Assembly: GCA_009996615.1 (NCBI GenBank)
Contig: JAACZU010000005.1
Span: forward strand, 124,001-188,000
Source of the DNA: Rhodanobacteraceae bacterium
GTDB taxonomy: Bacteria; Pseudomonadota; Gammaproteobacteria; Xanthomonadales; Rhodanobacteraceae
Length of the DNA: 64,000 bases
Direction: 5' to 3'
Made by a program: the position numbers and the translations under genes. This document shows, one piece after another, positions 15,110-56,028 of this stretch; positions within the stretch are counted from its first letter, which is position 1; the number at the start of each line of letters is the position of its first letter. The notes below the pieces were generated by a model that made no database searches, was not told the origin of the DNA, and worked only from the letters and a program-made list of their open reading frames with translations.

Positions 15110-15214
15110 AATCGCGTCACCATGCGAGCGGAACACAGGGACGCGTGTCGGTTCTTCCGAGGGACATGCGGCAGCAACACCATGCCCACCCAACCCTCCC
15201 CTTGAAGGGGAGGG
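15110..15214 (+). repeat. Partial copy of the GGA-hairpin repeat, ending in a hairpin
   Basis: This shares the order of the 55-kb element: ATGCGAGCGGAA, then ACAGGGACGCG, GTCGGTT, ACACCATCCCCACCC-like sequence and a terminal hairpin CCCTCCCC-TTGAA-GGGGAGGG (15194-15214). The well-paired stems seen at 55 kb are mostly degraded here. The 294-bp gap 14939-15232 holds nothing else recognisable. Like the 55-kb copy, it abuts the 3' end of an oppositely oriented gene (uvrB). Confidence 0.65.
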
Positions 15215-15232
15215 CTTGAACGCACACGCGTG

Positions 15233-52138: not shown

Positions 52139-52372
52139 TCGTAGGGCGGGACGCCGCCGCACAGCGGTCGAAACGGCCCTCCGGCCGCTGAGGTCGAAGC
52201 CGCCACGAGCGGCTGAGAGGGGAGGCACGGATGCCGACCGGAGCGCGTTCCATGGATGGATTTCCGGATAGCCATTGCACAGATGCCGACCGGAATATCG
52301 CTCCAGGAATGGATGCCTGGCGGGACTCGCGCCTTCGGCGCTGCGTCCCATCCTGCGTCCACGCCGGACGCC
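52139..52372 (+). repeat. GGA-hairpin repeat copy between folK and panB
   Basis: The left part (GTAGGGCGGGACGCC, 52139-52153) and the right part (GGCGGGACTCGCGCC...GCGTCCCATCC, 52320-52352) belong to the GGGTGGGAC family. Between them lies a copy of the 55-kb element: GTCGAAGCCGCC...GGCGGCTGAG, then hairpins GGCA-CGGA-TGCC (52224-52235) and TCCA-TGGA-TGGA (52249-52260), and an imperfect second repeat of the GATGCCGACCGGA block. This fills the gap 52076-52379; no gene was seen. Confidence 0.7.
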
Positions 52373-54399: not shown

Positions 54400-54530
54400 T
54401 TTGTTTTTGCGATCGTCCGTGATCGCTGCGGGCCGAGAGTCTGAACAAGACCTCTGCCCTTTGCTCCGGACAGGATCCAGAAGCGGCCATCCATGGCCGC
54501 ACTCCTCGACAGAAGCACTCCAGTCCTGCC

Positions 54531-54854
54531 ATGCCCTTCGTCGTCACCGAGAACTGCATCAAGTGCAAGTACACGGACTGCGTCGAGGTCTGTCCGGTCG
54601 ACTGCTTCCACGAAGGCCCGAACTTCCTCGTCATCGATCCGGAAGAGTGCATCGACTGCACGCTGTGCGAGCCGGAGTGCCCGGCCAGCGCGATCTTCCC
54701 GGAAGACGACGTGCCGGCTGGCCAGGAAGCCTTCATCGCGCTCAACGCCGAACTCGCCAAGGCGTGGCCGGTGCTGACCGAACGCAAGGACGCCCCGGCC
54801 GACGCCAAGGAATGGGACGGCAAGCCGGACAAGCTCAAGCTGCTCGAACGCTGA
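54531..54854 (+). CDS. fdxA: Seven-iron ferredoxin
   Basis: A 107-residue electron carrier. Eight or more cysteines form the [3Fe-4S] and [4Fe-4S] sites: [20 protein letters not shown] (about 7-26) and [19 protein letters not shown] (about 38-56). The C-terminal extension (about 75-107, [19 protein letters not shown]) is typical of FdxA. The start at 54531 begins the conserved MPFVVTENC. It stands alone, about 130 bp after tRNA-Glu. Confidence 0.97.
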
Positions 54855-54884: not shown

Positions 54885-55041
54885 CATCCAACTATCTACT
54901 CTTCGCGAAAGCGACAACAGCAGTGGCTCAGGCGAGGCGCCGCTACGCTACGCTTCGCTTCAGCTTCTGCGCGCAGGAGCGCGCCGCTTTTCCGGGCCCC
55001 CGTTCAGCGGCGGTGGGCGCCGGACGGATCAGCCCGCAGGG

Positions 55042-55385
55042 GCGCGCGCAGGATGCGCGCGCGTTCGCCGTCGGCACACGGATGTGCCGTCGGCGAACCC
55101 CGGCCGGCGACCACGCACCCGCAGGGCAGGATGCCCGGAGGGCGCCGCTGTTGGGGTCGAAGCCGCCCTCGGGCGGCTGAGGGCGAGACATGGATGTCGA
55201 GCGGCAGGCGCCCCAGGGATGGATACTTGTGCCGACCAATCGACTGTGCGCTGGACAAGCAAGAGAAAGTAACCCGCTCGCAGGGATGCGAGCGGAAAAC
55301 GCAGGGACGCGGGTCGGTTTTCGCGGAAGCGGTGACGCGAAAGCCGAACACCATCCCCACCCAACCCTCCCATTGAAGGGGAGGG
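55042..55385 (+). repeat. Element of GGA-loop hairpins with a terminal hairpin
   Basis: Five hairpins present CA(N)GGATG with GGA in the loop. GCGCGCGCA/TGCGCGCGC, loop GGA (55042-55062); CGGCACA/TGTGCCG, loop CGGA (55072-55089); GGGCA/TGCCC, loop GGA (55124-55136); GACA/TGTC, loop TGGA (55187-55198); CCGCTCGCA/TGCGAGCGG, loop GGGA (55274-55295). A separate hairpin AGCCGCCC/GGGCGGCT sits at 55161-55178. The block ends with CCCTCCC-ATTGAAG-GGGAGGG (55365-55385) and CTTTA. No coding signal is convincing in the 556-bp gap 54855-55410. Confidence 0.75.
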
Positions 55386-55410
55386 CTTTAGGCGTGCCAC
55401 GCAAGAATCG

Positions 55411-56028
55411 TCAGGACAAGCGCTCGCGCAGCGCCGCCAGCAGCGTACGCGCGGCGTCCTGCGAGGCGGCGTCGGAACCGCCCTCGACGTTGACCGTGCT
55501 CTTGTCGGCGCCGTCCGCGCTGACGCGCACGGTCAGCTGCACCTTGGCCGTGGTCTTGCCGCCGGCGCGGCCGAGCGTGATCGCGCGCTTGAACCAGCCC
55601 GCTTCGCTCGCCGCCTGACCGGTGGTCTCGACGGTGTAGGCGTGCGCCGCCTCGTCGCGCCCCAAGATTGTCGCCGCGCCGGAGCGCTCGAGCGCAAGGC
55701 CGACGCGCGTCCAGGTGCTGTCGACGGTATCGGCGACCTGCAAGCCCGCGCCGGCGAGCGCGACGCCCGGTGCCGGCGGCGGCAGCGCGGACGGGGTGGC
55801 GTCGGCTGGCGCCGTGCCGGCCGTCGCGGCCGGGGCGGTCGTCGCACCAACCGCCGGGATCGTCAGCGCGGCGCTGCTGTTCGGCATGGTCAGGTCCGGC
55901 GGTACCTCGAGCGGGCGCTCCTGGACCGACTTGAGGTATCCGGTGTCCTGGCGCTTGTGCAACAGCGAACCGCAGCCGGCCAGCAACGAAGCGGTCACGG
56001 CCAGCAACGCGAAGATAGTGCGTTTCAC
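55411..56028 (-). CDS. bamC: Outer-membrane assembly factor BamC
   Basis: A lipoprotein subunit of the beta-barrel assembly machine, 205 residues and therefore shorter than the 344 of E. coli. The signal MKRTIFALLAVTASLLAGC has lipobox LLAGC (Cys19). An unstructured N-terminal part with Pro-Ala repeats contains the BamC-like segment YLKSVQERPLEVPPDLTMP. One helix-grip domain (about 95-200) shows DSTWTRVGLALERSGAATILGRDEA and VTVRV-type strands. The second helix-grip domain of E. coli BamC appears to be absent. It follows dapA, as in enterobacteria. Confidence 0.85.
   Translation of the reverse strand: MKRTIFALLAVTASLLAGCGSLLHKRQDTGYLKSVQERPLEVPPDLTMPNSSAALTIPAVGATTAPAATAGTAPADATPSALPPPAPGVALAGAGLQVADTVDSTWTRVGLALERSGAATILGRDEAAHAYTVETTGQAASEAGWFKRAITLGRAGGKTTAKVQLTVRVSADGADKSTVNVEGGSDAASQDAARTLLAALRERLS

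Follow-up and report, generated by a model that had tools for sequence, protein, structure and literature searches.

Known CsrA antagonists are small RNAs for which a genome has a single dedicated gene or a handful of them. TwoAYGGAY (Rfam RF01731) figures in a published table as a probable RNA, with gamma-proteobacteria, Clostridiales and the human gut given as its sources (PMC2864571), and a later text gives it as predicted to bind CsrA, with validation pending (PMC4333381). In Xanthomonas campestris, RsmU is described as an RsmA-binding RNA cut from a 3' untranslated region; as its description states, RsmA binding survives the alteration of four predicted GGA motifs (PMC7694677), so that GGA content alone proves little. 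The motif ANGGA is the CsrA site motif used by CSRA_TARGET, according to the text cited for it (PMC9788540).

Here we compare with these systems a hairpin-rich intergenic element found in a stretch of 64,000 nucleotides, the whole of the DNA analysed and hereafter called the window, from a Rhodanobacteraceae bacterium. The window has a GC content of 69% and the host genome a size of 3.9 Mb.

Results

The element is flanked by a ferredoxin gene (54531-54854, + strand) and a bamC-like lipoprotein gene (55411-56028, - strand). These names, together with dapA and pcnB, were read by eye from translations and are presumed to be correct. The nearest named relatives of the ferredoxin belong to one Rhodanobacteraceae MAG and one Dokdonella sp. 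A preliminary description, made from the sequence alone, had delimited a 344-nt interval, 55042..55385; the true span is wider, at 54962-55388. The parts of the element and its relatives in the window are as follows.

54962..55388, + strand: whole element, one copy of a dispersed structured repeat (own-genome BLAST, 36-sequence alignment)
54999..55156, + strand: structured core, in which hairpins 1, 2 and 3 are enclosed by helices P1 and P2 (RNAalifold consensus, model R1)
54969..54984, + strand: hairpin 0, GCGCGC-AGGA-GCGCGC (hairpin scan)
55042..55062, + strand: hairpin 1, with a GGA loop here and CGA in most sister copies (hairpin scan)
55063..55098, + strand: hairpin 2 and its outer stem, loop ACGGAT (aligned sequences, own copies)
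55124..55136, + strand: hairpin 3, GGGC-AGGAT-GCCC (hairpin scan)
55158..55261, + strand: alternative middle module, common to few copies (alignment)
55187..55198, + strand: hairpin 4, GACA-TGGA-TGTC, within the middle module (hairpins, alignment)
55274..55295, + strand: hairpin 5, CCGCTCGC-AGGGAT-GCGAGCGG (own copies)
55300..55311, + strand: hairpin 6, CGC-AGGGAC-GCG, with a 3-bp stem (own copies)
55365..55385, + strand: terminal CCCTCCC/GGGAGGG hairpin, no T-run (sequence, alignment)
15122..15217, + strand: partial copy of the element's 3' part (within-window BLAST, 82% over 103 columns)
52166..52261, + strand: diverged relative of the middle module (within-window BLAST, sequence)

The five same-strand hairpins of the preliminary description are present on the + strand where it had placed them, four with the loops AGGAT (55050), ACGGAT (55078), AGGAT (55128) and AGGGAT (55282), and the fourth in its list as a 4-bp stem round TGGA at 55188-55197 (ACATGGATGT). 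Two further hairpins extend this series, at 54969-54984 (an AGGA tetraloop) and 55300-55311 (ANGGAN), and the long-range helices enclosing hairpins 1-3 are likewise additions to that account.

A BLAST search of the host's own genome returned 60 matched places, which were merged by hand into at least about 40 copies (best 40 of 420 candidates). With a covariance model, 29 full-length structured cores were recovered from the same genome at 130-150 bits, and among the best 150 of 9766 candidates nothing weaker passes an E-value of 0.001; with model R1, described below, the window core (54999-55156) reaches 147.6 bits. The remaining copies, at least about 11, are truncated. The suspicion that the locus belongs to a dispersed repeat family was thus right; of the related copies reported elsewhere in the window, those that could be located are fragments, at 15122-15217 and 52166-52261. 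The 36-sequence alignment consists of the window copy and L101-L135, with L136-L140 left out.

The middle module (55158-55261) represents a minority type, most copies carrying a long GGTTACTTTCTCTT/AAGAGAAAGTAACC stem in its place. Four copies (L107, L109, L110 and L111) hold an extra hairpin-rich insert of about 70 bp within the loop of the GGTTACTT stem, and in L108 this insert is inverted and stands beside that stem.

None of the 38 own copies examined falls within a called gene. The tolerance for overlap was set at 60 nt, and in two copies 1-2 nt are shared with a gene. A coding explanation was discarded, no called gene running over any of the 38. Genes were called by a simple codon-usage script trained on the host genome from six seed genes chosen by eye.

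The CCCTCCC/GGGAGGG end had been called terminator-like. Its hairpin stands, at 55365-55385, and can be made out in most of the 36 aligned copies; its reading as an intrinsic terminator was rejected, since none was found on the + strand of the element, a T-run is missing, and the bases 3' of the hairpin vary and are not T-rich (CTTTA here; CTAAA, CTCAA and CTGGA in others). A consensus scan yielded 0 sigma-70-like promoter sites, which says little in a GC-rich genome. Given 29 full cores, no + strand terminator and no sigma-70-like promoter seen, the idea of a single CsrB-like sponge gene with a terminator is not supported.

Conservation of the fold was assessed in an alignment (A1) of the window copy and 43 of the 78 nhmmer hits from 40 loci in relatives. 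These loci were placed by hand on BLAST matches, some of them so as to span visible pairs, and selection retained 44 near-full-length hits with E <1e-6, of which one with an insert was left out. The resulting 44 sequences, aligned by sequence alone, have a mean column identity of 61%. In the domain predicted by RNAalifold, P1 encloses P2 and hairpin 3, and inside P2 stand hairpins 1 and 2 together with another, small hairpin. Changes on both sides occur in 44 of the domain's 50 base pairs, and by a separate count paired cells make up 95.2%. Covariation scores 0.577, as against 0.171 in shuffles (0/500 as high) and 0.052-0.128 with the partners slid; having been derived from the same sequences, the structure is favoured over its slid versions, though the margin is very large. 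By the measure of this covariation, the core is an RNA-type fold kept by selection. Model R1 was built from 35 of the 44 sequences and holds 43 pairs, the stem of hairpin 1 being left out.

Folding energy alone cannot name the RNA strand: the GGA strand is unusually stable (z-score -5.1; 0/100 shuffles as stable), but good folding is seen on the opposite strand as well (z -4.3), as with inverted-repeat DNA. In DNA, G-T and A-C departures from a stem are expected about equally often, and RNA tolerates G-U. Among the 44 sequences, which are related and whose fold was chosen on that same strand, the GGA-strand stems hold 45 G-T against 18 A-C departures (p 0.0009), or 25 against 9 in the best-paired columns, and by columns there are 20 pairs with G-T and 9 with A-C. 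The own copies hold 16 G-T against 6 A-C (p 0.05; hairpin 1 pairs left out), with 9 of the 16 at one pair. This G-T excess favours the GGA strand as the source of the RNA.

In different copies and in different species the loops conform to A-N-GGA-N, the rule for CsrA sites, most clearly in hairpins 2 and 6, and to this extent the preliminary interpretation is supported. Among the 44 aligned sequences, hairpin 2 keeps GGA in 44 and the preceding A in 43, with varied N positions (G21 C10 T5 A2 gap 6; T25 C8 G6 A4 gap 1); it exists in 33 versions, every one with GGA, which is also present in 29/29 own copies. Hairpin 6 of the own copies has A in 35/35, GGA in 36/36 and A(N)GGA in 35/35, and all four bases occur at its N positions (N1 G23 C8 T3 A1; N2 T18 C16 G1 A1). 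Variability in the N columns of these two hairpins ranks 3rd, 4th, 7th and 35th among 315 columns, and entropy is zero wherever GGA stands in hairpins 2, 5 and 6. Hairpin 5 shows A(N)GGA in 35/35 own copies, though its N positions hardly vary (ranks 106 and 148 of 315). Hairpin 2 also has A(N)GGA in 51/53 model matches from 39 loci, among them all 21 matches of the 19 class-wide loci L206-L224 (1 in the same order, 18 beyond it), counts which are weaker evidence because model R1 rewards the loop.

Hairpins 0, 1 and 3 differ from hairpin 2 in how far GGA is kept, and the constraint is thus not equal across loops. Hairpin 0 has A(N)GGA in 29/30 own copies and GGA in 36 of the 44 aligned sequences (absent in 8); hairpin 3 has A(N)GGA in 28/32 own rows, two of which are misaligned truncated copies, and GGA in 32/44 (absent in 12). 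In hairpin 1, GGA is found in 34/44 aligned sequences (absent in 10) and in 3/29 own copies, the other 26 mostly reading ACGAT. Free variation of the GGA between copies, named in the preliminary description as a refutation, is accordingly not seen in hairpins 2, 5 and 6, and for the most part not in 0 and 3; the exception is hairpin 1.

A strict scan, requiring a perfect stem of at least 4 bp and a loop of AnGGAn or AGGAn (and thus passing over hairpin 6, with its 3-bp stem), counts 4 hairpins in the 344-nt interval. Dinucleotide-preserving shuffles of the interval gave 0 in 1945 and 1 in 55 of 2000 cases, none reaching 2, and 30 shuffles of the whole window gave at most 2 per 344-nt stretch on either strand. 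An unbiased loop-class count over 80 ferredoxin loci revealed no clear enrichment of AnGGAn: with stems of at least 5 it ranks 65 in L009-L050 and 209 in L051-L088, and with stems of at least 6 it ranks 23 and 119. Away from the element, therefore, hairpins of this type are not in general excess.

Other ANGGAN hairpins were noticed in the window. Two lie at 680-785 (gcgcac-AGGGAT-gtgcgc and gctcgc-ACGGAT-gcgagc), intergenic by a tRNA gene and outside the repeat. Two more, on the - strand at 54410-54500, lie between a tRNA gene and the ferredoxin gene, and the first of these (gcgatc-ACGGAC-gatcgc) was found again upstream of the ferredoxin gene in relative L009 (2343).

A search of related genomes for the element, which the preliminary description had proposed, located the fold well beyond its host. 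Model matches occur in at least 40 of 200 genomes of the order, in at least 20 of 274 of the class (18 of these belonging to other orders) and in at least 7 of 398 of the phylum, all within the class; each count includes the own genome and is a lower bound, strict filters and few scored candidates per genome having been used, and with E-values computed per genome (cut 0.001) a chance match is possible among the weakest. A csrA gene (PF02599) was detected in 37/41 genomes, own included. Among the 36 that are at least 90% complete, it accompanies the element (as found by BLAST) in 23/23 and is also present in 11 of the 13 others, so that co-occurrence does not discriminate.

In the host genome, cores are single in the regions fetched. 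Among the fetched loci of relatives, two or three cores are held by 25 of the 38 with a match (40 loci given, some placed to span pairs), and of the 28 neighbouring pairs 24 are divergent, with their 5' ends toward each other, and 4 are tandem, none being convergent. The genome-scan loci, a less selected set sharing some genomes, hold two cores in 14/39, 13 divergent and 1 tandem. Arms within one unit are 55-88% identical (eight comparisons), whereas the same arm is 87-97% identical across two copies (eight comparisons, four genomes); identity being higher between copies than between arms, the divergent pair is duplicated as one unit, within which the arms have diverged. At the centres of some divergent units (L160, L176, L179 and L180, for example) lie hexanucleotide runs such as (GCCAAA)n or imperfect repeats like GAGCAA, which recall the traces left by slippage or by end repeats.

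Discussion

The results establish the array of hairpins and its dispersal, the covariation of the fold, the ANGGAN signature of the loops and the presence of csrA in the host genome. We consider it rather probable that the copies jointly serve as a distributed CsrA sponge and as local docking sites, by way of read-through RNA folding into CsrA-binding loops. The predicted binding of CsrA by the loops we regard as likely; sponge action may be the best reading of these sequences. The repeat to which the element belongs would be mobile, or have been so once, and selection would act on its RNA. Its GGA strand would be transcribed, most likely by read-through from the upstream gene (26/37 own copies follow a co-directional one), and the transcript would fold into a multi-branched domain showing five to seven A(N)GGA(N)-loop hairpins, to which CsrA/RsmA dimers would bind. 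Spread over many transcription units, the 29 full copies could together titrate CsrA, and locally each could act as a CsrA docking site in 3' untranslated RNA.

The main rival holds that the element is a selfish DNA repeat of the MITE or REP/BIME kind, in which a transposase reads single-stranded DNA hairpins and the GGA loops are unrelated to CsrA. We think this unlikely, yet several observations agree with it. The copies are dispersed and intergenic, and the nearest relatives have an empty orthologous fdx-bamC locus, where the matched genes stand about 40 bp (L009) and about 60 bp (L010) apart, versus 556 bp here; to judge by this spacing, the window copy is an insertion missing from those relatives. 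At an E-value of 0.1 the model has no match in the 80 ferredoxin loci (616 kb), which double as a negative control. The inverted pairs of relatives resemble REP pairs, genes for Y1 (RAYT-like) transposases occur in 29/41 genomes (2 such genes in the own genome), and an imperfect repeat like AGAGGGTGTCTACAAA lies at the 5' side of 8 own copies and, inverted, 3' of another 4. However, within 4 mismatches no own copy has the repeat at both ends, and the window copy has it at neither; the pattern occurs 3 times in the own genome and 0 times in 40 relatives. On these grounds a MITE with defined ends seems unlikely, the inverted repeat being one-ended, variable and of a pattern unique to the host genome. 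Against a selfish repeat more generally speak the excess of G-T over A-C in the stems, as for a one-strand RNA, loops that fit the CsrA rule with N left free, and a multi-branched core of about 160 nt, far beyond a REP palindrome. Moreover, four core-bearing genomes (G003, G011, G018 and G022; two 99-100% complete, two below 90%) gave no Y1 hit.

It has also to be asked whether the element acts at the 3' end of the upstream gene, protecting or trimming its mRNA, with CsrA as a bound helper and no global titration. Gene context lends this some weight. The context count covers 38 copies (L137, L139 and L140 left out), one of which has no upstream gene; in 26 of the other 37 the upstream neighbour is co-directional and reads toward the element (13 convergent, 13 tandem; two-sided p 0.02). 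The 20 paired units examined in relatives, at loci picked for having pairs, are all intergenic; the genes on either side are tandem in 13 cases, convergent in 7 and divergent in none, and RsmU offers a precedent of an RsmA-binding RNA cut from a 3' untranslated region (PMC7694677). Yet the upstream gene points away in 11/37 own copies (7 tandem, 4 divergent), and the frequent divergent pairs of relatives are left unexplained, which makes the proposal improbable in our estimation. The same facts qualify the distributed sponge: with 11/37 upstream genes pointing away, read-through cannot serve every copy, and in the divergent arrangement of relatives one of the two arms would be transcribed antisense if a neighbouring gene were read through.

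Chance, whereby GC-rich hairpins would hold GGA loops by coincidence, can be dismissed: the region is GC-rich, lone GGA hairpins lie elsewhere in the window and the 80 ferredoxin loci lack a general excess of them, but the shuffle counts rule out such an origin of the loops, the fold stability (z -5.1) opposes it and the covariation test refutes it.

A bolder form of the distributed sponge, which we put forward tentatively and hold to be possible, is that of a 'sponge transposon', a unit able to transpose and carrying as cargo a diverging pair of CsrA-binding RNAs that have evolved differently; its tens of copies would exert a distributed titration in place of a single CsrB/RsmZ gene. If true, the amount of free CsrA would be set by copy number and by the host transcription units that are active, and post-transcriptional regulation would be tied to a mobile element. 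A CsrA-type recognition unit here sits in a repeat with 29 full copies and with relatives in many Gammaproteobacteria. It would offer a candidate for the CsrA antagonist of a group where an RsmZ-type RNA scores over the cut-off in 0/41 genomes. The fold and the loop rule also make predictions at the level of single hairpins: hairpin 2 should bind CsrA, and hairpin 1 should not in 26/29 own copies.

Comparison with known systems

A search of the open-access literature found no description of a multi-copy form in divergent pairs, which is a weak negative. On the window, tRNAs alone reach an Rfam gathering threshold, and a canonical Rfam member was thereby ruled out; RsmW matches below threshold (26.1 bits against a gathering value of 52, E 0.024).

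TwoAYGGAY (RF01731, of the CsrA-binding clan CL00106) shares with the element adjacent hairpins with loops of, or close to, the AYGGAY type, its occurrence in Gammaproteobacteria and its place in the fold, positions of about 43-117 of RF01731 falling inside the R1 core in L222, L231, L236 and L160 (above gathering in L222; weaker, below gathering, in the other three). The two neighbouring loops concerned are those of hairpin 2 (ACGGAT) and hairpin 1 (AGGAT here, ACGAT in most sisters), and many relatives have GGA in both. The cut-off of RF01731, 43 bits, is reached in L222 and in 2/41 genomes (G028 and G031), while the own genome gives 0 matches at an E-value of 0.1 and the window none. The element further differs in its five to seven loops, the extra helices P1 and P2, its tens of copies and, in relatives, the divergent pairs; and as against the two loops of TwoAYGGAY, its first loop is without GGA in 26/29 own copies. 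Given the overlap with the core in relatives and the lack of an own match, we take it for a relative of TwoAYGGAY with a different build, not a member, and as such it would give this little-studied family a wider, testable setting. In G031, contig 12 holds five RF01731 matches on both strands, partly close together, which suggests that the Rfam family is itself multi-copy there.

With CsrB/RsmZ the element has in common serial GGA-loop hairpins whose loops lie on one strand, as well as GGA kept while stems covary, hairpin 1 of the own copies excepted; in length, too, these sponge RNAs are presumably similar to it. Unlike them, with their one or few genes, it occurs in many dispersed copies, and no intrinsic terminator was found in it. 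PrrB_RsmZ reaches its cut-off in 0/41 genomes and has weak matches in 3.

RsmU, to which the element is likened by description, is an RsmA-binding 3'-UTR RNA of the same bacterial order that had no Rfam homologue when described; it differs in being a single locus, said in that text to be limited to Xanthomonas, with three or four GGA motifs (PMC7694677).

Like REP/BIME sequences, lastly, the copies are dispersed, intergenic and palindromic, and in relatives form inverted pairs. REP repeats have a GTAG-type guide, and none was noticed here; the element, in contrast to REP/BIME, extends over hundreds of nucleotides, with a multi-branched fold and ANGGA loops.
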